In this document: positions 12,616 through 24,881 of the stretch, piece by piece
Layout of the letters: each line of letters begins with the position of its first letter
Position numbering within the stretch: position 1 is the stretch's first letter
Assembly: GCA_003131625.1 (NCBI GenBank)
Contig: PKVY01000066.1
Location: 1 to 64,000 of the forward strand
Reading direction: 5' to 3'
Length of the DNA: 64,000 bases
Origin: Acidobacterium sp.
GTDB taxonomy: Bacteria > Acidobacteriota > Terriglobia > Terriglobales > Acidobacteriaceae
Made by a program: the position numbers and the translations under genes
Notes under the pieces: model-generated
Databases searched by the model: none
Told to the model about the DNA's origin: nothing
Seen by the model: the letters and a program-made list of their open reading frames with translations, nothing else

Positions 12616-13176
12616 CTACTGGATCAGTTCGGTCGTCGTAGCGGTCATCGTGTAAGTGTGAGAACCGAAAGCAAAAACGTTGACGGTCACCGGATAGGTC
12701 ACCGTAAGCACCGCGGTTTCTCCGGTGGTCATGGTCACGCTGCTGCACGAAGGGGTTGTCGTCCCTGAGCTCGAATAAGCCGTCCCGCCCAGCGTGACCG
12801 TATAACGAAGACTGCTGGCTGTCAGTCCGGGCGCAGCGTTTTGCACATCCGTCACGGTCGATGCGCAGGGATCGGCCACATTTCCGCGCAGCAGCGCCAG
12901 CTGCTCTGCGCCCGCCTGCACCGCATTGTTCAGCGCCAGATCGTTGTTCAGGGCGATGCCGAAGAAGATCATGCCTGTGATCATCATGACCATCAGCGGT
13001 ACCACCACAAAAGCCATCTCCGCGAGCGCCGATCCACTTTCATCGCGGATCGCCAGATCGCGTAGCCGCGCGGTCATCGACGGTCTCCGCTCCGCCTCTT
13101 GCGCCGGCCCTTTCCCTCGGAGGTCTGGAATTCTCGTTTCTTCATGCACCGCTGTCTCCTGTACCTGTTCGTTCAT
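12616..13176 (-). CDS. TadE-like minor pseudopilin (4)
   Basis: 186 residues. The ATG at 13176 overlaps the stop of the upstream membrane-protein gene as ATGA, which supports this start over the internal ATG at 13077. A charged lead of about 45 residues precedes DESGSALAEMAFVVVPLMVMMITGMIFFGIAL (processing site and membrane segment). A secreted domain with two Cys follows and ends TYTMTATTTELIQ. Coupling to the polytopic protein and to TadG-VWA 2 puts all three in one operon. Confidence 0.85.
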   Translation of the reverse strand: MNEQVQETAVHEETRIPDLRGKGPAQEAERRPSMTARLRDLAIRDESGSALAEMAFVVVPLMVMMITGMIFFGIALNNDLALNNAVQAGAEQLALLRGNVADPCASTVTDVQNAAPGLTASSLRYTVTLGGTAYSSSGTTTPSCSSVTMTTGETAVLTVTYPVTVNVFAFGSHTYTMTATTTELIQ

Positions 13177-14804
13177 GGCAGCTGCCTCGGAGAACCCGCT
13201 CCGCTGCCGGCCTGGTTCAGCGCAGCAACGCTGTTCTCCCCGTTCTTCAAATCCTTGCGGGCAACGAACACCGCCGCCACCTTGTCCTCGTACGTCAGCT
13301 CGAAGCGCGCGTCCGTGCGCAGCAGCTGCGTCAGCGCCGCTCCATCCGGAGCGATCACCACCCCCGCCGACTGCAAATCCGGATCCGCAGCCCACTTGGC
13401 CCCGCCGCTCCACGTTTCGCGCGAACGGTCGATCGCCTTGTCCCCGTAGAGCGCCGCGCGGCCGTCGATGCTCACCGGCTCGCGCAGATTCCAGATCAGG
13501 AACCCGCCCCAGTCGTAATCGTTGAACAGCGGCCCTGTGTAGTGGCGCTCTTTCACCACGTCCACCGCCCGCACCGGCATCTTCTCCGCCAGCATGGCCT
13601 GCAACCGGCCGTTGTTCAGATGCAGCAATGCAACACTGGCCACAAATGCCAGAACCGCGCTGGCAGCGCTCAGCGCCAGCGCCCACGCCGGCAGGTTCTT
13701 CCTGTCTTCGCGTTCCGCGCGCACCGGAAGGCCCGCGGCCAGAATCGCACCCGCTGTAATCGCCATCACCCACAGATCGCGCCGCGAGCGGAACGAAAGC
13801 ACCGCCGCCATGGCCAGCATCAGCGTCTCGAATGGCGCCAGCCGCCGGTACCGGAACAGCACTCCGGCCGCAGCCAAGGCAAGAAACAGCAGGGCAAAAT
13901 CGCCCAGCGTCCGAAACGGCAACGCCAGCATCTCCGCGATGCTGTCCAGCACGCCCGGCTGCGAACCCAGTTGCCACGCCACTTTGTAGATCCCCGGTCC
14001 GTACGGATTCAGGCACGTCGCGGCAACGCATGCCCCCAGCGCCAGCCACAGATTCCGCGCCGGTGCGCCTTTCGTTCCCGACTTCCACCAACGCTCCAGC
14101 AGCGGCTCCGTCGCGGCGATCCCCAGCACCAGCAATCCGTCGACAAACTGAATATGCACATTGGCCCACAGCGCGAACAGCAGCGGCAGCCACAGCAGCT
14201 CGCGGCTCTTGCCGGTCTGGCGCACGTGCATCAGGATGTCCATCTCCAGCGCGAAAAACAGAATCGTGAACAGCCACGGCCGCGGCGTGCTCATGCGCGA
14301 AAGGCAGAACATCACGGCGATCGTCAGCACCGCGCGCTGCGTGAAATCCGCCTGCAGCCGGCTCATCATGTGATAAACGGCCGCTGCGATCAGCGCCATC
14401 ATGGCCGCCGTGAAAATCATCAGCCCCTGCAGATTCATCCACCCGTAGAGCTTCAGCAGAATCAGCTCGAACAGCCAGCTGTACGCCTGCCACGCGCTGC
14501 CGCCGCTCACGCGCGAGAACGGATCGGTACGAGGAAAGGCGTGGTGCTGCAGAATCCACTGGCCCGTGCGCAGGTGCCAGCCTACATCCGGGTCGGCGAC
14601 CGCTCCGGTGGCGCCGCGCAGGCAAACGAACGCCGAAACCGCGCACAGTAACCCGATCAGCAGGGCCCGTGCGGCCTGGTCCGTGCGCGATGGATTCGTT
14701 TGAAATTCCTGCAACGCGATGCTCCTCTGGCCCTCAATGCCCCCGGTGCGCGAGCACCGGACGCCTGTTCTGCGCGCGGTGACAGACCAACCCTCATCTC
14801 GCAC
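13173..14804 (-). CDS. Polytopic membrane protein, GT-C glycosyltransferase-like, in the Tad locus
   Basis: Up to 543 residues with about nine or ten hydrophobic segments (from about residue 45 to 400) and a soluble C-terminal domain (about 410-543). The first extracytoplasmic loop has DPDVGWHLRTGQWI, an acidic/His motif of the kind found in GT-C fold transferases that use lipid-linked sugars. The GTG at 14804 has no good ribosome site. A TTG at 14714 with AGAGGAG is a likely truer start and would remove 30 unconserved residues. It heads the - arm of the Tad locus and overlaps a TadE gene by 4 bases. Modification of pilins or of TadE/TadG is a reasonable inference; no enzyme function is proven by the sequence. 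Confidence 0.7.
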   Translation of the reverse strand: MRDEGWSVTARRTGVRCSRTGGIEGQRSIALQEFQTNPSRTDQAARALLIGLLCAVSAFVCLRGATGAVADPDVGWHLRTGQWILQHHAFPRTDPFSRVSGGSAWQAYSWLFELILLKLYGWMNLQGLMIFTAAMMALIAAAVYHMMSRLQADFTQRAVLTIAVMFCLSRMSTPRPWLFTILFFALEMDILMHVRQTGKSRELLWLPLLFALWANVHIQFVDGLLVLGIAATEPLLERWWKSGTKGAPARNLWLALGACVAATCLNPYGPGIYKVAWQLGSQPGVLDSIAEMLALPFRTLGDFALLFLALAAAGVLFRYRRLAPFETLMLAMAAVLSFRSRRDLWVMAITAGAILAAGLPVRAEREDRKNLPAWALALSAASAVLAFVASVALLHLNNGRLQAMLAEKMPVRAVDVVKERHYTGPLFNDYDWGGFLIWNLREPVSIDGRAALYGDKAIDRSRETWSGGAKWAADPDLQSAGVVIAPDGAALTQLLRTDARFELTYEDKVAAVFVARKDLKNGENSVAALNQAGSGAGSPRQLP

Positions 14805-15150
14805 CGTGAGTGGAAGTTACCTGTGGGAAATGTCCTTCATTATCATCAGGGCGCACCGCCCCCTCGTCGATAACCCACATCACGAGCCGGAATAACACCC
14901 TCGTGCACCCCTCCCCCGAATGGGGAATTAACCGTGGAGCCAACTTTTGCCCGCAGAGCGTGCCTTTGACAACGTCCCTTCCGCCTGGTGGAGAGTCAGG
15001 TCCCCGGTTACCTGCACCGAATGGGGTACGACTTTAGTACTGATGAGCCATGGCTTCCAGACACTCCCTCGGTTACTTCTGATCCTCGGGACACGGCGCG
15101 GCCTCCGCCGGCAGGTCGGTTGCAGCAGCGCTCCGGTCATCCTGGAACGA
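14805..15150. promoter_or_regulatory. Divergent regulatory region between the two arms of the Tad locus
   Basis: About 350 non-coding bases between the - arm (14804) and the first Flp gene (15151). It must hold the promoters for both. TTGACA occurs at about 14967, but no matching -10 box at normal spacing can be defended. 'ggggtacgactttagtac' at 15023-15040 carries an ACTAAAGT word (on the - strand) also seen before other surface genes of this window. Confidence 0.45.
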
Positions 15151-15327
15151 ATGAGCATGAAAGTTACTCGAAAGCTCCTGAACGACCTTCTGCGCGGCGA
15201 ATCCGCGTCCGGCATGCTCGAGTATGTTCTGCTCGCCGCATTGCTGGTTCTCGCGGCTTACGTAGCGATGCATCACCTGGATAAGAAAATCGCGAAAGAT
15301 TACAACCAAATCGGCAAGAAATTCTGA
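15151..15327 (+). CDS. Divergent Flp-type pilin 1
   Basis: 58 residues; an ATG at 15157 would give 56. A basic lead (MKVTRKLLNDLLRG) is followed by ESASGMLEYVLLAALLVLAAYV, the Flp prepilin segment with the conserved Glu-Tyr, and a lysine-rich tail ending NQIGKKF. Counting back from Glu(+5) puts Ala, not Gly, at -1, unlike the two downstream pilins. It may be processed poorly or serve as a minor subunit. It is first in the + arm, about 250 bases before the second pilin gene. Confidence 0.8.
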   Translation: MSMKVTRKLLNDLLRGESASGMLEYVLLAALLVLAAYVAMHHLDKKIAKDYNQIGKKF

Positions 15328-15577: not shown

Positions 15578-15748
15578 ATGAACCGGACATCGCGGCTCCT
15601 GACAAGTTTGCTGAACGATGAATCGGGCCAGGATCTGATCGAGTACGCCCTAATTGCGGCTTTGATAGCGGTTGCTGCCATCACCGCGATGAAGGGACTC
15701 GGCAACAAAATTTCGAACGACTTCAACACCATCGGCAACAGCCTCTGA
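15578..15748 (+). CDS. flp: Flp pilin 2
   Basis: 56 residues starting at the ATG at 15578, with GGGAGG seven bases before it. LLNDESGQDLIEYALIAALIAV is the textbook Flp/TadE-class signal: Gly at -1, Gln at +1, Glu-Tyr at +5/+6, then the hydrophobic assembly helix. The mature tail ISNDFNTIGNSL closely matches pilin 3 (ISNEFNSVGNSL). After cleavage by CpaA the mature subunit has about 40 residues. It is one of three pilin genes placed before cpaA. Confidence 0.93.
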   Translation: MNRTSRLLTSLLNDESGQDLIEYALIAALIAVAAITAMKGLGNKISNDFNTIGNSL

Positions 15749-16020: not shown

Positions 16021-16182
16021 ATGAAACTGCTTTTCAAGAACCTGATGAACGATGAGTCTGGCCAGGACCTGATCGAGTATGCTCTGATCGCTGCCCTCAT
16101 CGCCCTGGGCGCCATCGTCGCGATGGGCTCGCTGAGCAACAAAATCTCCAACGAATTCAACTCGGTCGGCAACAGCCTGTAA
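16021..16182 (+). CDS. flp: Flp pilin 3 (likely major pilin)
   Basis: 53 residues with an ideal ribosome site (AAGGAGA, six bases before the ATG). NDESGQDLIEYALIAALIALGAIVAMGSL gives the cleavage site G|QDLIEY and the assembly helix; the tail is ISNEFNSVGNSL. It is close to pilin 2 but shorter in the lead. The strong ribosome site, own hairpin leader and clean motif make it the best candidate for the major pilin, which is inference. Confidence 0.93.
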   Translation: MKLLFKNLMNDESGQDLIEYALIAALIALGAIVAMGSLSNKISNEFNSVGNSL

Positions 16183-16660: not shown

Positions 16661-17203
16661 ATGTCGAACCTTCATTCCGAGTGGCTGTACCCGGCTATCG
16701 CACTGCTTTGCGCGATCGTCGGCTCAGTTTTCGACGTACGCAGCCGCCGGATTCCGAACTTCATTACTCTGCCCGGCATTTTGCTCGGCTTGTTCCTGCA
16801 CTTCGCGTTCGGCGGCTGGAAGCAGCTGGGTTTGGCTGCTCTCGCCGGTCTGATCTGCGGTGTCCTCTTCCTTATCTTTTGGCTGGCAGGCGGCATGGGT
16901 GCCGGTGACGTCAAGTTGATGACCGCCGTCGCCACGATCGCCGGGATGCCTCTGGTTCCCTTTCTTCTCATCCTCACCGCGCTCTCTGGCGGTGTGATGG
17001 CCCTCGGCCTCGCGCTCTGGCGCGGTAAGCTGAAGGACACCATCCGTAACGTTGGCGCCCTCGCCCTGCATCATCGCATCGAGGGTCTTGCCCCCCATCC
17101 ACAACTTAATCTCGCGAATGCGAGGACACTGCGCCTTCCCTATGCCCTGGCTGTTGCTGCCGGCACCGCGACGACGCTGTTCCTCACGGCGTTCCAAAGG
17201 TGA
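16661..17203 (+). CDS. cpaA: Prepilin peptidase CpaA/TadV (A24 family)
   Basis: 180 residues with about five membrane segments. The two catalytic Asp of type IV prepilin peptidases are present: D25 in SVFDVRSRRIPN and D83 in GMGAGDVKLM (the GxGD motif). It lacks the methylase domain of PilD, as is normal for CpaA/TadV, but carries a C-terminal extension of about 50 residues. It cleaves the Flp pilins and the TadE pseudopilins at the inner membrane. cpaB follows 6 bases after its stop. Confidence 0.93.
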   Translation: MSNLHSEWLYPAIALLCAIVGSVFDVRSRRIPNFITLPGILLGLFLHFAFGGWKQLGLAALAGLICGVLFLIFWLAGGMGAGDVKLMTAVATIAGMPLVPFLLILTALSGGVMALGLALWRGKLKDTIRNVGALALHHRIEGLAPHPQLNLANARTLRLPYALAVAAGTATTLFLTAFQR

Positions 17204-17209
17204 TCTGAT

Positions 17210-18025
17210 ATGGCTCGCCGCTTGATGCTTGCTCTCGTCGCTGCTTTGGTGATCTCCGGCCTCTTCACGTTCTGGCTCAGCCGCAGAGTTGCCCACGCTT
17301 CTCACGTGCCCGTTCAGCCGGCCAACCAGTACGTTGCCGCTGCGCGCTCCCTCGATCCCGGCGAAGTCATCCGCCGCGAAGATCTCTCCATGATCGAATG
17401 GCCCCGCAATCATCCTTTGACCGGCAGCTTCGTCAAAATCGACGACGTGGTGGGCCGCGCCGTGCTCTATCCGCTCGCCGCCGGGCAGCCCATTCTCGAC
17501 CGCCAGCTGGCCGCCGCCGGCGCCGGCATCGGCCTCACAGGCAGAATTCCCAGCGGCATGCGCGCCATTGCCCTCCGTTCCGATGAGGTCGTCGGCGTGG
17601 CTGGCTTCCTCATGCCCGGTACCCATGTCGATGTGCTCGTTACCTATACCGACAACACCCATCCGGAGCCGGTGACCGCCACCGTCCTCCAGGACTCCGA
17701 GGTTCTCGCCGCCGGCCATCAGGTTCAGCCTGATCCCTCCGGCAAGCCCGTTTCCGTGGATGTCGTCACCCTCCTGCTCTCTCCCGAGGAGGCCGAAAAG
17801 GCCGTTCTCGCCAGCGAGAAAGGAACTATCCACTTCGTCCTGCGTAATGGCGGCGATCATGGCGCGGCGGGTGCTACCCCGGTCGCGCTCGCGCAACTGG
17901 CCGCCCTGCCTTCCACCGCCAAGGGTGCCCCACCGGTGCCCGAGGTCCACAAACCCCACGCCCCCAAACCCTGGGTCGTGGAAACCATGTTGGGCGATAA
18001 GCGCTCCGCGGTGAGTTTCAACTGA
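17210..18025 (+). CDS. cpaB: Flp pilus assembly protein CpaB/RcpC
   Basis: 271 residues. One N-terminal membrane anchor (about 5-24) is followed by a SAF domain (about 42-105; ARSLDPGEVIRREDLSMIEW) and the RcpC/CpaB domain (about 110-230; GMRAIALRSDEVVGVAGFLMPGTHVDVLV). CpaB is a periplasmic or inner-membrane-anchored partner of the secretin. The C-terminal 40 residues are Pro/Lys-rich. It is 8 bases before cpaC. Confidence 0.92.
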   Translation: MARRLMLALVAALVISGLFTFWLSRRVAHASHVPVQPANQYVAAARSLDPGEVIRREDLSMIEWPRNHPLTGSFVKIDDVVGRAVLYPLAAGQPILDRQLAAAGAGIGLTGRIPSGMRAIALRSDEVVGVAGFLMPGTHVDVLVTYTDNTHPEPVTATVLQDSEVLAAGHQVQPDPSGKPVSVDVVTLLLSPEEAEKAVLASEKGTIHFVLRNGGDHGAAGATPVALAQLAALPSTAKGAPPVPEVHKPHAPKPWVVETMLGDKRSAVSFN

Positions 18026-18033
18026 GGCATTGC

Positions 18034-19497
18034 ATGATAACCACACAGCGCACAACTCGAAGGCTTTCACCCGCCCTGCTGGCGGCGGCGTTTGCGGTGG
18101 CCGCATCTTCCGCCGCATGCGCGCAGGAAAAGCCCGTCGCCGCCGGGACGCCCTCCACCTTCGTCGGCAGCATGGGCACCAGCGCCCAGGCCGTCGGCGA
18201 GCCTCTTCATCTGCTCGTCGGCCGCTCCATGTTCGTCAACACCGAGAATCGCATCAAGCGCGTCTACGTCAGCAACCCCGACGTGCTGGATTCGTTTACC
18301 TCCAGCCCTCACCAGATTGTCATCACCTCCAAAGCTCCCGGACTCTCCAGCCTCGTGCTCTGGGATGAAACCGGACAATCCCGCGCCTATCTCATCAATT
18401 CCGACATCGATGTCTCTGACCTGCACCATGCCCTGAAGGACGCCTTCCCCGACGAGAACATCCGCGTCGAAGGTCGCGGCGACCAGGTCGCTCTCGCCGG
18501 CCTCGTCTCCAGCCCCGAAACCGCCGACGCTGCGGCCAAACTGGCTGCCCTCTTCTCCAAGGATGTCGCCAATTCCCTGCAGGTGACCACGAAGCACACT
18601 CCTCAGGTCCGGCTCAAGGTGCGCATCATCGAGATCGACCGCTCCCGCGCCCAACAGCTGGGCTTCAACTTCTTCGGCCCCGGCGTGAATTCCTTTAGCT
18701 CGAGCACCGGACAGTTTGGCGCCGTCACCGTGGGCGCCAATACTCCCACTCCCGTTTCCTCTCCCACCGCCAGCACCTCTCTGCTCTCGCTCAGCAGTCT
18801 GCTCGGTCTGTTCTATTACAACCAGGATTTGCAGCTGGGCGCCGCCATTCAGGCCCTTCAAACGAACCAGATCGCGCAGATTCTCGCTGAGCCCACCATC
18901 ACCGCGCTGAGCGGAGAAAAAGCCTCCTTCCTTTCTGGCGGCGAGTTCCCCTACCCGGTGGTGCAGGGCGGCACCGGCGGATTCACCTCCGTCACCATTC
19001 AGTTTCGCCCCTACGGCGTCAAGGTGGACTTCACTCCGACCGTTCTGGCCGATGGCACCATCGAGCTGAAAGTTGCGCCCGAGGTCAGCGCGCTGGATTA
19101 CTCCAACGAAGTCACCATCTCCGGATACACCATTCCGGCCATCTCCACGCGCCGCGCCGAAACCATGGTCGAGCTCAAAAGCGGCCAGAGCTTCTCTATT
19201 TCCGGGCTGCTCGACAACCGCACTTCCGATCAGCTCTCCAAGATTCCCGGCATCGGCGACATCCCCATCCTCGGCAAGCTCTTCCAGTCGAAGAACACCA
19301 CCAAGAGCGTCGCCGAGCTGGCGGTGATCGTGACCCCCACCCTGGTGGATCCGCTCACCGACAATCCCACGCCGACCCAGCCGACGACGGCCGTCCCGTT
19401 CATCGAAAATCAGAAGTTCGACAAGAGCATCGCGCCCAAAACGCCGCCGCCTCAGCCGCAGCCCCAGCCGGTGCCCCCGCAGGTCCCGATTCACTGA
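18034..19497 (+). CDS. cpaC: Outer-membrane secretin CpaC/RcpA
   Basis: 487 residues. A signal peptide (1-30, ending SSAACAQ) leads into the N-terminal pilus-formation domain (about 55-125; VGRSMFVNTENRIKRVYVSNP), a BON-like segment (about 130-185), and the secretin barrel domain (about 255-430). The latter includes the conserved PTITALSGEKASFLSGGEFP and the ending GDIPILGKLF...ELAVIVTPTLVDP. It forms the channel through which the Flp pilus leaves the cell. A Pro/Gln-rich tail follows. cpaE starts 19 bases downstream. Confidence 0.94.
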   Translation: MITTQRTTRRLSPALLAAAFAVAASSAACAQEKPVAAGTPSTFVGSMGTSAQAVGEPLHLLVGRSMFVNTENRIKRVYVSNPDVLDSFTSSPHQIVITSKAPGLSSLVLWDETGQSRAYLINSDIDVSDLHHALKDAFPDENIRVEGRGDQVALAGLVSSPETADAAAKLAALFSKDVANSLQVTTKHTPQVRLKVRIIEIDRSRAQQLGFNFFGPGVNSFSSSTGQFGAVTVGANTPTPVSSPTASTSLLSLSSLLGLFYYNQDLQLGAAIQALQTNQIAQILAEPTITALSGEKASFLSGGEFPYPVVQGGTGGFTSVTIQFRPYGVKVDFTPTVLADGTIELKVAPEVSALDYSNEVTISGYTIPAISTRRAETMVELKSGQSFSISGLLDNRTSDQLSKIPGIGDIPILGKLFQSKNTTKSVAELAVIVTPTLVDPLTDNPTPTQPTTAVPFIENQKFDKSIAPKTPPPQPQPQPVPPQVPIH

Positions 19498-19516: not shown

Positions 19517-20758
19517 ATGAGCCAGCAGGCCTCCAATTCGCAGACTCTCACGGTTGCGCTGCTGACCGTCGGTCTCGACCATGAACTGACGGACAAAGTC
19601 GTCCACGCCGCCTCCGAGCACCACTGGACGGTCAGCCACGACGACTTCGACGAGTACGTCTCCGCCGTCCGCCGTCCCGCCGTCTCCTCGGAGACCAAAG
19701 CCGCCGACCTCGTCATCGCCATCATCGACTTCGATCGCGACCCTGCGGGCGCCGCCGAAACCGTCACCTACCTGCAGCAGCTCTTCTTCGGGCGATTCTT
19801 TGCCGCCGCTCTTTCCGGCCGCAACGATCCCGATCTCCTGCTCTCCGCCATGCGCGCCGGCTGCAACGAGGTACTCAAAAACCCCCTCGATCCCCGCCAG
19901 CTCGCTGACACCTTTGACCGCCAGGAGAGGCAGTGGGCCACCAATACCGGGCGCGCCCGCAACACCGGGCACATCATTTCTTTCTTCGGCGCCAAGGGCG
20001 GCGTGGGCACCACCACCGTCGCCGTCACCCTGGCCTATTACCTCGTCCGCCAGAAGAACAAGCGCGTCCTGCTCATCGACAACCATCCCGAGTTCGGCCA
20101 TGTCTGCCTCTACCTCGGGCTCGATGGCAGCCGTTACCACTTCGATGAGCTCATTCGCAACGTCAATCGCCTTGATTCCACCTTGCTGCGCGGCTTCATC
20201 GCCAAGCATGGCTCGGGACTCGAAGTCCTTTCTTCCCCTGAATCGCACGATCTGACCCGCACCGTCGATCCCGACGCCCTCGAACGCACCCTCGAGTTCC
20301 TGCGCGGCGAGTACGACTACATCATTCTCGACTGCCAAACCTCCCTCGAGGAAGTTTCCCTCGCCGTCATGGACCGCTCCGACCAGATCTACCTGGTCGC
20401 TACCCCGGACATCGGCGCCATTCGCGACCTTTCCCGTTACATCGACGGACTCAGCCGCAACGAGTCCACTTCCGCGCGCCTTCACGTCATCATTAACCGC
20501 TATTCCTCCCACGGCGCCATCGCCATCGAGCAAATCGAAAAGGCCATTCGCGTCCCGGTTGAAGTTCGCCTCTGCAACGCCTACACCGAATGCCAGCGCG
20601 CCATTAACGTCGGCGAGCCCATTGGACCCGACAAGAAATCGGAGATTTCCGGCCAGTTCACCCGCTGGACCTCCATGCTCACCGGTGAGGAAGCCGCTGC
20701 CAAAACTCAGCCGGCCCGCAAAGGCTTCTCTTTGTTCGGCCAGAAAAGGACTGAATAG
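19517..20758 (+). CDS. cpaE: Pilus localisation ATPase CpaE/TadZ (MinD/ParA-like)
   Basis: 413 residues. An N-terminal receiver-like domain (about 10-135) probably lacks phosphorylation. A ParA/MinD-type ATPase follows, with deviant Walker [14 protein letters not shown] (about 156-168) and the ILDCQTS switch region (about 270). TadZ/CpaE marks the pole or site where the Tad machine assembles. The ORF lies between the secretin and the motor ATPase, and its stop is 2 bases before cpaF. Confidence 0.92.
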
Positions 20759-20760
20759 CG

Positions 20761-22143
<1,383 letters not shown>

Positions 22144-22155
22144 GGTCCCGCGCTC

Positions 22156-23133
22156 ATGATCTTCATCGCCTCCAGCTTCTTCGCCGTCCTCATCATCACC
22201 TTCGGGGTGGTTACGCTCGCGACCGGGCCCAGCCAACTCGATAAGACGCTGCAGTCCCGGCTCGCCGCCATTTCCATTGACAAGTCCGGTATCCCCGGGG
22301 CCGCCGCCCTCCAGGCCGGTGAGCTCCTGCGCAAAACCGCCAGCAGCCGTTTCGACTGGATCGGCCAGTCCATCTCCAAATACATCTCCATGCAGTCGCT
22401 GCAGAAGTGGATCTCCCAGGCCGCGCTCAACACCACGGCCTCGGCCCTCTTTGTGCAGACCGCCGCCGCCGCCGCCATCGGCGCCCTTATCACTGTCTTC
22501 TTCGCCCCGTTCGCCGCCGCTGTTGCTTCGGCCGCCGCCTTTTGCGCCACGCTGCCCTGGGCCCGCATCGCCTTTGCCCGCTACCGCCGCCTGCGCGCCT
22601 TCGAAAAAGCCCTCCCCCACGCCATCGATATGATGGCCCGCTCTCTCCGTGCCGGCCATTCCACCGCAGGCGCCATCGAAATCATGGCCCAGGGCGCTCC
22701 CGAACCGGCCTGCTCCGAGTTCAGCGAGGTCTTTCGCCAGCAGAACTTCGGCCTCCCGCTCCGCGATGCCCTCATGCAGCTCATCGATCGCGTTCCCTCT
22801 GCCGATCTGCGCGTCCTCGTCACGGCCATCGTGGTGCAGCGCGAAACCGGCGGCAACCTGGTCGAAGTCCTCGATCGCACCACCAACGTGATTCGTGAGC
22901 GCCAGCGTATCCAGGGCGAGATTCGCGTGCAGACCGCTCAGGGCCGCCTCACCGGCTGGATCCTGACCCTGCTTCCCGTGGTCGTCATGCTGCTCATCAA
23001 CGTGATGGATCCCGGCTATTCCAAGCCCCTGTTCCATGACCCGTTCGGCCACAAACTCCTGATGCTCTGCGGCTGCCTCATCGTGCTGGGAGCCTTCTTC
23101 ATCAACCGCATCATCAACTCCATCGACGTATAA
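22156..23133 (+). CDS. tadB: Inner-membrane platform protein TadB
   Basis: 325 residues with membrane segments at the N-terminus (about 3-22), the middle (about 95-135) and the C-terminus (about 268-320). A T2SSF/TadB domain lies at about 155-285 (FEKALPHAIDMMARSLRAGHS...VVQRETGGNLVEVLDR). With TadC it forms the pilus assembly platform on which CpaF acts. It starts 12 bases after cpaF. Confidence 0.93.
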   Translation: MIFIASSFFAVLIITFGVVTLATGPSQLDKTLQSRLAAISIDKSGIPGAAALQAGELLRKTASSRFDWIGQSISKYISMQSLQKWISQAALNTTASALFVQTAAAAAIGALITVFFAPFAAAVASAAAFCATLPWARIAFARYRRLRAFEKALPHAIDMMARSLRAGHSTAGAIEIMAQGAPEPACSEFSEVFRQQNFGLPLRDALMQLIDRVPSADLRVLVTAIVVQRETGGNLVEVLDRTTNVIRERQRIQGEIRVQTAQGRLTGWILTLLPVVVMLLINVMDPGYSKPLFHDPFGHKLLMLCGCLIVLGAFFINRIINSIDV

Positions 23134-23145
23134 CGGGAGACGAAT

Positions 23146-24036
23146 ATGGTGATCTTTTTCTACATTGCGCTCTCCCTCACCGTCTTCTGCGTGATTACGC
23201 TGCTGTGCGCGCCACTCTTCCTGCGCCCTTCGCAGCAGGCTCGCCGCATTCTCGACATCGTCACCAGCGACCGGCCTGACAAGCGCACCGTCCGCAGCAA
23301 GGAGAAAGCCAAAGACAGGCTCCTCTCCCTGGCTCGTTCCTTCCGCGCGCGCCTCGGACTCTCAGAAGATGAGAGACTCCGCCAGCGCTTCGTCACCGCC
23401 GGCCTCAAGGGCGGCAGCCAGCTCGACCTCTATTTCACCGCCCGCTTTGTCGGCCCCGTAGCCGGCATCCTCGGCGGCACCTTCATCCACACGAACACCG
23501 CCTTCTGGTGCCTCGCTCTTGCCGCCATCGGCTATCTGCTTCCCGATATCTGGCTCACCCGCGCCGTCAATAAGCGCAAGAAAAAGATTCAGAAAGGCAT
23601 TCCCGACGCCATCGACCTGCTCGTTATCTGCGTCGAAGCCGGCCTCGGCCTCGATCAGGCCCTGCTCCGCATCGGCCAGGAAATCGCCGTCAGCTATCCC
23701 GAGCTCAACGAGGAATTCAACCAGATCAACCTGGAGCAGCGCGCCGGCAAACCCCGGCTCGATGCCTGGCAAAGCATGGCCGACCGCACCAAGCTCGAGG
23801 AGTTCACCTCCCTCGTCACCATGCTGCAGCAGACCGACCGCTTCGGCACACCCATCGTCCGCGCCCTTAGCCGTTATTCCGAGGAGCTTCGCACTGCGCG
23901 GCGTCAGCGCGCCGAAGAGGCTGCCGCCAAAACCAAAATCAAGATTCTGTTTCCCCTGGTTTTCTTCATCTTTCCCTGCCTCTTCATTGTGCTGTTGGCT
24001 CCGGCAATCCTCACTTTGAGCGCCAACCTGAAATGA
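23146..24036 (+). CDS. tadC: Inner-membrane platform protein TadC
   Basis: 296 residues with membrane segments at about 1-25, 95-140 and 268-294. A T2SSF domain lies at about 155-285 (KGIPDAIDLLVICVEAGLGLDQALLRI...LQQTDRFGTPIVRAL). It is the partner of TadB. It starts 12 bases after tadB and is the last recognised Tad gene. No TadD-like TPR lipoprotein follows. Instead two membrane microproteins lie 73 and 234 bases downstream. Confidence 0.93.
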   Translation: MVIFFYIALSLTVFCVITLLCAPLFLRPSQQARRILDIVTSDRPDKRTVRSKEKAKDRLLSLARSFRARLGLSEDERLRQRFVTAGLKGGSQLDLYFTARFVGPVAGILGGTFIHTNTAFWCLALAAIGYLLPDIWLTRAVNKRKKKIQKGIPDAIDLLVICVEAGLGLDQALLRIGQEIAVSYPELNEEFNQINLEQRAGKPRLDAWQSMADRTKLEEFTSLVTMLQQTDRFGTPIVRALSRYSEELRTARRQRAEEAAAKTKIKILFPLVFFIFPCLFIVLLAPAILTLSANLK

Positions 24037-24109
24037 ACAGGGAAACGACAAGTTTGCTGGAATTCGCGTGCGCCCGCACCTCCTGGGCGAACCGGAAAGG
24101 AGATTCACG

Positions 24110-24208
24110 ATGGAATCGTCCATGATTGTGCGCGTTGTCGCGCTCGCATTCGCAGTAGTTGTTGTCGGCGTCATCATTCTGCGCAGAAGGAAGTCGAGGT
24201 CTGCGTAG
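24110..24208 (+). CDS. Membrane microprotein 1 at the end of the Tad operon (32 residues)
   Basis: A 32-residue frame with a strong ribosome site (GGAAAGGAG, ending six bases before ATG). It starts MESSMIVRVVALAFAV and ends GVIILRRRKSRSA: a two-residue polar head, one hydrophobic helix of about 19 residues and an Arg/Lys-rich tail. Membrane insertion with the tail in the cytoplasm is expected. It is clearly paralogous to the frame at 24271-24363. No family is recognised. The matched ribosome sites and the paralogy argue that both are real genes. Confidence 0.68.
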   Translation: MESSMIVRVVALAFAVVVVGVIILRRRKSRSA

Positions 24209-24270
24209 TCTCATCTCTTCTCGGGAGCTGACTCCCCTCACTACGGCGCATGCCGGGAAAGGAGTATGCC

Positions 24271-24363
24271 ATGGCTGGATCCCTGATGATCCGTGCGGTC
24301 GCCGGTGCTCTTGCGGTTCTGGTGTTCGGCGTGATCGTGCTGCGCAGAAAGAAAATTGCCTGA
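24271..24363 (+). CDS. Membrane microprotein 2 at the end of the Tad operon (30 residues)
   Basis: 30 residues with GGAAAGGAG six bases before the ATG. It starts MAGSLMIRAVAGALAV and ends LVFGVIVLRRKKIA. Aligned with microprotein 1 it conserves S-x-MI-R-V(A)-A-x-AV-V-GVI-LRR-K, while the DNA has diverged at many third positions, the sign of selection on protein. A hairpin with 9-bp stem follows at 24384. Possible roles are a Tad platform subunit, a regulator of TadC or CpaF, or an envelope-stress peptide. None is shown by the sequence. Confidence 0.68.
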   Translation: MAGSLMIRAVAGALAVLVFGVIVLRRKKIA

Positions 24364-24383
24364 TTTTCTCAGGCTCCCACTGC

Positions 24384-24407
24384 GTCCTGAGCTCCGTTGC
24401 TCAGGAC
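24384..24407 (+). terminator. Hairpin closing the Tad operon
   Basis: GTCCTGAGC (24384-24392) pairs perfectly with GCTCAGGAC (24399-24407) over the loop TCCGTT, 20 bases after microprotein 2. Only a short pyrimidine run follows, so termination may be partial or Rho-assisted. Confidence 0.55.
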
Positions 24408-24527
24408 CTCTAACCCAGTACCGGCCACGTGGATCCTCCAGCCGCGGACTCTCATCCCGTTCGCCTCGGGAGATCCCTCGCATCGGAGGCGAGAAACTGC
24501 CTGCAAGCCGGCGGAGAGGGTGTGCCT

Positions 24528-24881
24528 GTGCAATATCTAACTGTCACCATACCGGAGAAGGCCGTAACCGTCGGCTCCCGCATCGGACTCGCTGACACCT
24601 GGCTTACGCGATTGTTCGGCCTTCTCGGAAAATCCTCCCTCGACGACGGTGCCGGCCTCCTTATTCGCCCCTCCTCCGGCGTCCACACCATGTGGATGCG
24701 CTTCGCTATCGACGTCATCTCTCTGGACAAGAACCTGCGCGTCCTCAACACCTGGGAGCGCCTCCGCCCCTGGCGCCTCACCCCCGTCAGCTTCAAGACC
24801 CACAGCGTCCTCGAGCTCGCCCCCGGCCAGATCAGCCACCTCAACATCGAGCCCGGCGACCAGCTCGTTCTCTCCAACTGA
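24528..24881 (+). CDS. DUF192 family protein
   Basis: 117 residues from the GTG at 24528, which has GAGAGG eight bases upstream; a GTG two codons earlier is too close to that site. It shows the DUF192 pattern: RLFGLLGKSSLDDGAGLLI, then VHTMWMRFAIDVISLD and a final LELAPGQISHLNIEPGDQL. Most DUF192 proteins are exported, but this one has no signal peptide. Function in the family is unknown. It lies between the Tad operon and YceI. Confidence 0.85.
   Translation: MQYLTVTIPEKAVTVGSRIGLADTWLTRLFGLLGKSSLDDGAGLLIRPSSGVHTMWMRFAIDVISLDKNLRVLNTWERLRPWRLTPVSFKTHSVLELAPGQISHLNIEPGDQLVLSN

Follow-up and report, generated by a model that had tools for sequence, protein, structure and literature searches.

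Tad pili are widespread machines for adhesion, predation and surface sensing, and it is an open question how a single ATPase can drive both their extension and their retraction. Their inner-membrane platform is described as TadB and TadC (CpaG and CpaH) in passages of PMC12019362, PMC13170226, PMC11300603 and PMC6668835. We analyzed a 64,000-nucleotide stretch of DNA from Acidobacterium sp. (here, the window) in which two frames of about 30 codons, a size easily overlooked by gene calling, follow tadC. Are these frames genes, how closely are they tied to tadC across the phylum, and could their products belong to the Tad machine?

Two short coding frames behind tadC

A Tad pilus operon occupies part of the window on the plus strand, with genes assigned by Pfam (Table 1). 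Its two Flp genes matched PF04964 with E-values of 5e-12 and 2e-12 and encode pilins of 53–56 aa. The name cpaE/tadZ, given to the ATPase gene that precedes cpaF, is presumed from its position. A TadC model built by AlphaFold2 from 36 sequences had a mean pLDDT of 77.6, with helices at residues 2–25, 90–111, 118–164 and 237–295; the model from the single sequence was poor (pLDDT 55.8). In a Foldseek search with the TadC model, the cytoplasmic (T2SSF) domains of EpsF, OutF and PilC ranked first, though at E 0.15–0.45, and by sequence no solved structure matched TadC at E ≤ 0.01. Upstream of the two clear Flp genes, the end of a frame at 14947-15327 (GESASGMLEYVLLAALLVLAAYVAMHHLDKKIAKDYNQIGKKF) resembles a third, diverged Flp pilin. 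On the minus strand, opposite the operon, a long frame (12616-14646) has an end (DESGSALAEMAFVVVPLMV) whose motif reads like that of a TadE-type pseudopilin.

Table 1. Features of the Tad operon and its downstream region, in window coordinates
Feature	Position	Strand	Basis
Flp pilin	15578..15748	+	PF04964
Flp pilin	16021..16182	+	PF04964
Prepilin peptidase cpaA/tadV	16661..17203	+	PF01478
cpaB/rcpC	17210..18025	+	PF16976
Secretin cpaC/rcpA	18034..19497	+	PF00263, PF13629
cpaE/tadZ-like ATPase (name presumed)	19517..20758	+	AAA_31/CbiA
cpaF/tadA ATPase	20761..22143	+	PF00437
tadB (T2SSF)	22156..23133	+	Pfam
tadC (T2SSF platform protein), MPs directly after	23146..24036	+	Pfam PF00482
MP1 ribosome-binding site, 7 nt before ATG	24094..24102	+	Sequence; kept in all six close genomes
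MP1, membrane microprotein of 32 aa with one span, a short acidic N end and a basic C tail	24110..24208	+	Sequence, selection, family
MP2 ribosome-binding site, 6 nt before ATG	24256..24264	+	Sequence; kept in all six close genomes
MP2, 30-aa paralogue of MP1	24271..24363	+	Sequence, selection
Smaller second hairpin	24358-24374	+	Fold scan
9-pair hairpin after MP2, no T-tract	24384..24407	+	Fold scan
DUF192/COG1430 gene, conserved next neighbour, start codon unsure	24429..24881	+	Pfam PF02643

The original prediction, made from the letters of the window, was that two short frames with paralogous products follow tadC. Both frames are present at that place, and their translations, MESSMIVRVVALAFAVVVVGVIILRRRKSRSA (MP1, 32 aa) and MAGSLMIRAVAGALAVLVFGVIVLRRKKIA (MP2, 30 aa), are 56% identical over 27 aa. 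Between the two copies, pS is 0.62 and pN 0.27. A search of their own genome (93.7% complete) with MP1 at E ≤ 10 matched the places of MP1 and MP2 and nothing else. The strong ribosome-binding sites that had been predicted are there too, GGAAAGGAG in both cases, with spacings that are nearly rather than exactly equal. An in-frame ATG at 24250, upstream of the MP2 start, has no ribosome site.

Comparison of close genomes showed that both frames are protein-coding. In summed pairwise Nei–Gojobori comparisons of five genomes (that of the window plus the PMAD, PMSS, PMUI and JASHPM records, which carry the names Acidobacterium sp. or Acidobacteriaceae bacterium), dN/dS in the claimed frame was 0.15 for MP1 and 0.27 for MP2, versus 1.01 and 1.58 in the two other frames of MP1 and 2.12 and 1.72 in those of MP2. 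For comparison, tadC gave 0.065, a value that leaves out palsa343, whose tadC is out of frame. Synonymous change thus far exceeds non-synonymous change, and the equal divergence that had been named in advance as counter-evidence was not found. Across six genomes, variable sites at codon positions 1, 2 and 3 numbered 9, 6 and 21 in MP1 and 7, 7 and 19 in MP2, with no length difference within either frame. Mean identity in these genomes was 0.81 for MP1 and 0.85 for MP2, compared with 0.68 in the DNA before MP1 and 0.67 between the frames, as expected from the earlier observation that the spacer has diverged while the protein pattern has held. The ribosome sites are the conserved exception in this otherwise less alike flanking DNA. 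MP1 and MP2 are therefore protein-coding and under purifying selection; chance frames are excluded by the codon-frame specificity of that selection, by the codon-position bias and by frame identity above that of the flanking DNA.

A hairpin had been proposed to close the unit. As a fold it is real, since the stretch 24355-24440 has a z of -4.1, but its role as the end of the unit is not supported: it has no U-tract, and a DUF192 gene follows. Our scan found no terminator-like site on the plus strand, the one site detected lying on the minus strand, and for this reason the MP transcript may continue into the DUF192 gene. Of the 110 acidobacterial loci whose sequence extends at least 900 nt beyond tadC, 101 have a same-strand DUF192 match behind it (57 of 62 loci with an MP and 44 of 48 without). 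Because it is equally frequent where MP is absent, DUF192 does not need MP. It is a second conserved gene linked to Tad.

Distribution of the MP family and its link to tadC

We searched behind tadC in other Acidobacteriota, as the original prediction had proposed. The 116 tadC loci comprised 103 matches in 90 of 150 same-family genomes and 13 further acidobacterial records, with some loci representing an identical sequence twice (e.g. G062/DX2 and G052/LL7). A filter scan asked for frames of 22–60 aa within 450 nt behind tadC, with a hydrophobic span, at least two R/K in the tail and a Shine–Dalgarno match of at least 4 letters. Homologous MP-type frames were present in 64 of the 116 loci (81 frames, 77 distinct sequences), at a median distance of 37 nt from tadC; the other counter-evidence named in advance, a lack of such frames in relatives, was likewise not found. 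In five more loci the frame that passed the filter encodes another kind of peptide, and these were excluded on inspection. Among the remaining loci, two have no more than 120 nt of sequence behind tadC, and the contig of G149 breaks off within the MP. Four more distant tadC matches, examined apart, had no MP in the first 300 nt. The description of the microproteins as paired is true for the window but does not generalize: 48 of the 64 loci have one copy, 15 have two and one has three, and pairing is lineage-specific.

Such a filter makes linkage to tadC partly circular, so a position-blind profile search was added. Profile A1, built from 75 MPs, was run against 396 genomes of the phylum with position ignored, using in many genomes the best 20 first-look candidates. 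At least 38 matches were obtained at E ≤ 1e-4, in 33 genomes, and 36 of 38 lie 37–449 nt behind a same-strand tadC, the two exceptions being those in G391 and G383. For genomes without members in the profile, the figure was 20 of 22 matches; outside the home family, again among genomes without members in A1, it was 10 of 11 genomes. Matches at E 1e-3 to 0.05 fell mostly within long frames and resembled chance helices. A wider profile, A2, gave at least 49 matches at E ≤ 0.005 in 42 genomes, 44 of 49 within 600 nt behind tadC, a linkage count that is descriptive because many A2 members were drawn from the same loci. The remaining five are the matches in G391 and G383, two in G295 and one in G276. 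By either profile, MP is encoded within the Tad operon in most carriers and is in that sense a Tad-operon component.

A further 60 tadC loci of the phylum, two of them with almost no sequence behind tadC, had no A1 match. Ten of these passed the filter within 350 nt, compared with 7 of 1200 shuffled stretches; among the ten, the frame in G161, which has a TTG start, seems spurious, and in G379 a further frame escaped the filter. About 50 of the 60 had no such frame by the filter within 350 nt. Remote members (e.g. MTTTQIILIAVAAIVGVLYLMRRRARLRKED) share build more than letters, and common descent with MP is likely. In four genomes (G361, G206, G271 and G504; loci L177, L187, L188 and L191) the MPs have a longer N end, e.g. 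MPLALWLTQATPESGSDS, and end in (D/Q)DW(S/N). The additional N-terminal part may form a second short helix or be cleaved off.

Several MPs are parted from tadC. In LL7/G052 the MP is displaced to ~1.5 kb behind tadC, still in the Tad cluster, so its apparent loss there is displacement. The MP of G383 lies 1.6 kb behind tadC, beside a Flp pilin-like frame. Both in L073 (LL7) and in L184 (G383), an opposite-strand regulator-like frame (containing KVILADNQSVFRTGAARIL) stands between tadC and the displaced MP. G391 has an MP on a contig with cpaF and without tadC. In G295, two tandem MP-like frames, with a helix and an LLRRR tail, occupy L276 (G295:C1:2027431-2027735), and no match to Tad genes was found within 6.3 kb of them. 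Three other matches were taken as chance helices: one inside a presumably lgt-like gene of G276, one inside a presumably transporter-like frame of G465, and one inside a 165-aa frame of G140 without the tail.

Non-acidobacterial samples gave no MP. Among 246 genomes from the phylum to which a record named Ca. Brocadia belongs, there was no match at E ≤ 0.001. Four single genomes (those behind L075–L078) also had none, in a search that found the positive control, Granulicella paludicola (DSM 22464), whose MP lies behind tadC. Plasmid tadC loci of Burkholderia, Skermanella, Chlorobium and Azospirillum had no MP within 350 nt; in two of these four loci, genes for a TPR protein and TadE-type proteins follow tadC. 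Judging from these few samples, the MP family may be confined to Acidobacteriota.

To relate MP to its neighbour, we placed its presence on a maximum-likelihood tree of TadC (112 rows, 63 with MP and 49 without, after four cut-off or out-of-frame rows were dropped). On this tree, whose bootstrap is not fully settled and whose root is only drawn, MP presence changes 3 times, versus 36.7 times in shuffles. Of the 49 rows without MP, 46 form one clade. The others are G052 and LL7, which have the same sequence and a displaced MP, and G106, the only row in the MP part of the tree in which no MP was found. Five genomes (G014, G030, G048, G073 and G147) have one TadC of each class, and in these MP lies behind one class only. 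Distances between MPs correlate with those between their TadC proteins (rho 0.35, n = 63; 0 of 1000 permutations as high). These data show that MP has been inherited together with one large set of TadC lineages. MPs are present at many acidobacterial Tad loci but not at every one. We also considered that MP makes up for a span that TadC has lost. The MP and MP-less classes show no clear difference in the hydropathy of TadC, which argues against such a simple replacement.

One sub-group within the MP-less clade has another single-span peptide (e.g. MTPAVVAVLVILLVLGLVAYNRQKDQA), which starts at or overlaps the tadC stop in seven of eight rows: L097 (G004), L145 (G011), L135 (G042), L101 (G025), L120 (G091), L117 (G050) and L149 (G030 C70); it is absent in G023. 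These peptides hint that a helix of this kind has been used beside tadC more than once.

Build of the peptide and comparison with known proteins

The 77 MP sequences are 29–44 aa long, with a consensus of about MDxxT(I/L)IR(I/V)VAGVLxVVVLxI(L/I)IxRR(R/K)xK. Position 8 is R in 69 and Q in 8, position 11 is A or S in 76 of the 77, and R is found at position 25 in 76. No sequence has an acidic residue at positions 6–24. Mean net charge is -0.7 before the span and +4.6 after it, and the C side is higher in all 77, in a set for which the scan filter asked for a basic tail and a Shine–Dalgarno site, so that charge bias and ribosome sites were partly selected for. In bacterial membrane proteins, the positive-inside rule relates such charge bias to orientation. 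By this rule MP would be N-out/C-in, with its RR(R/K)xK tail on the cytoplasmic face of the membrane.

Conservation along residues 6–24 (weighted column entropy) has its strongest period at 100 degrees, with an amplitude reached in 0.2% of shuffles. The conserved side of the helix comprises R8, A11 and positions 15, 18, 19 and 22. A one-sided face of this kind is expected of a helix that packs on a partner; a mere anchor would not need one. MP thus has the marks of a single-span accessory protein, namely one helix, fewer than 50 aa, conservation with a partner gene and a one-sided face. Linkage suggests that tadC is that partner gene.

Library searches returned weak matches. With MP1, all five NCBIfam and all six Pfam matches were below the curated cut-offs, as were the Pfam matches of 10 further members. 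LPXTG_anchor was the commonest NCBIfam family (45 of 75 members, best E 7e-4), and Gram_pos_anchor was matched in Pfam by 37 of 75. The best Pfam score of any member, 24.6 bits (E 2.5e-5, cut-off 25.2), was to the eukaryotic Syndecan domain PF01034 and came from one MP with a YRMKKK tail; what the two share is a helix and an RMKKK tail, a likeness of composition. PHROGs gave weak matches only (best listed E 2.9e-4), and a PDB profile search with MP gave nothing below E 0.44. Among the papers listed in literature searches, none was on such a peptide. Neither 'small protein' nor 'TadC' occurs in a paper on Kil and Tad (PMC12075869), and 'tad' and 'pilus' are absent from two papers on small proteins. 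The suggestion that MP is a possibly undescribed part of Tad machines therefore stands within these searches: as far as they reach, MP is an unnamed microprotein family of the Tad operon. Its genes follow tadC in many families of a phylum that is abundant in soil, and proteins this small can be missing from the parts lists even of well-studied machines.

The closest comparisons are of arrangement. TadB and TadC share with MP the operon and the membrane, and tadC directly adjoins it; they differ in being T2SSF proteins of ~300 aa, whereas MP has no T2SSF domain and a single span. In E. coli, the one-helix proteins CydX, whose gene sits in its partner's operon, and AcrZ serve larger membrane complexes (cytochrome bd and AcrB), much as is proposed here for MP. 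Both are precedents for single-span helper proteins (PMC6005532, PMC7267776). Family searches gave no sequence relation of CydX or AcrZ to MP, whose own partner is putative.

Possible roles at the Tad platform

We propose that MP is an N-out/C-in single-span accessory helix of the TadB/TadC platform, which stabilises the platform or tunes its drive by CpaF; taken as a whole, we regard this proposal as an even bet. The surest step is the first, in which MPs would be translated from the tad transcript by means of their own strong ribosome sites. They would then insert N-out/C-in, bringing the RR(R/K)xK tail to the cytoplasmic membrane face. Through the face formed by R8, A11, 15, 18, 19 and 22, the helix would pack on a transmembrane helix of TadB or TadC and serve the platform as CydX or AcrZ serve their partners. 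In the last and least sure step, MP would stabilise the platform or tune the CpaF drive, its basic tail lying where platform and ATPase meet. Duplicate MPs could supply an extra dose or two helices acting in one platform.

Published modelling offers a framework for such a helix. An AlphaFold3 model presented in passages of PMC12019362 has CpaG and CpaH as a trimer of heterodimers, with a shaft and openings of ~22 Å to the membrane. In these passages, the first helix of CpaH (TadC) stands in front of the openings, CpaF is predicted, at lower confidence, to contact a positive patch of CpaG/CpaH there through a negative patch of its own, and the authors reckon with the possibility of 'an unknown regulatory element'. 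On that model, a helix oriented N-out/C-in, its basic tail in the cytoplasm, would fit next to TadC. TadB and TadC are themselves thought to derive from gene fission, according to a passage of PMC6668835; platform parts have thus been split before. MP would add a new part to models in which the inner-membrane platform consists of TadB and TadC only. The platform reading has a limit: Tad platforms in general can do without the helix, because 46 of the 112 rows in the TadC tree make up a clade that lacks MP and has TadC of similar hydropathy. The plasmid loci and the 246 genomes of another phylum, which gave no MP, and the tandem frames of G295, with no Tad gene found near them, also count against it. 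Moreover, co-inheritance with tadC is expected of any gene in the same operon, and the partner could be TadB, CpaF, the pilins or DUF192.

We also weighed a role outside the platform, which is possible, if on the unlikely side. MP would then be a membrane-bound Tad regulator or assembly factor that, for example, holds the CpaE/TadZ ATPase, the prepilin peptidase or DUF192 at the membrane, or guards unassembled pilins. A shared operon fits this reading, as does the MP of G383 beside its Flp pilin-like frame, ~1.6 kb from tadC. DUF192, although it follows in 57 of 62 MP loci, is no less frequent behind tadC without MP (44 of 48), and the usual place of MP, a median of 37 nt behind tadC, is right after the platform genes.

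MP might also be a pilin-like helix, either a minor pilin reduced to its minimum or a decoy that goes into the platform instead of the Flp helix. Like MP, Flp pilins (PF04964) are short helical membrane proteins of the same locus; in size, hydrophobicity and operon position MP comes close to them, and such a helix could use the platform's opening for pilins. We nevertheless consider it distinctly unlikely, since MP has neither leader, processing site nor Glu5. The prepilin site G/A-xxxx-E occurs in none of the 77 sequences, which also have no acidic residue in the span, and its basic end is the C-terminal one, opposite to the arrangement in a pilin leader. Flp_Fap is absent both from the Pfam matches of MP1 and from the 25 Pfam families that 75 members match most often.

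Several known type I toxins have the same build as MP (~30 aa, one helix and a basic tail), which raises the question of whether MP is a small hydrophobic toxin of the type I toxin–antitoxin kind, or another membrane-acting peptide, riding in the operon. Such a peptide would hardly be expected to be inherited with TadC, to lie behind tadC in several families, to carry its ribosome site in an operon context and to be so rarely found in convincing form outside Tad loci (two copies, both in G295), and we judge this explanation very improbable. Finally, sorting tails (LPXTG, PEP-CTERM, GlyGly-CTERM) resemble MP in having a helix followed by RRRK, and weak matches to them are the commonest in the libraries, but the idea that the frames are relics of such a tail, or functionless chance hydrophobic frames, is barely credible for free 30-aa proteins with their own start, matches below the shown cut-offs, neither an LPxTG nor a PEP motif in any of the 77 sequences, almost invariant R/Q8 and A/S11, and selection specific to the reading frame.

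A bolder form of the accessory-helix reading of the TadB/TadC platform, which we think doubtful, is that MP acts as a detached gate helix in the TadB/TadC opening, where its basic tail on CpaF would set pilin entry and exit and hence extension and retraction. If so, the Tad systems of other lineages would use the first helix of TadC for this purpose, or unrelated single-span peptides; the peptides that overlap the tadC stop in the MP-less clade would be an example of the latter.
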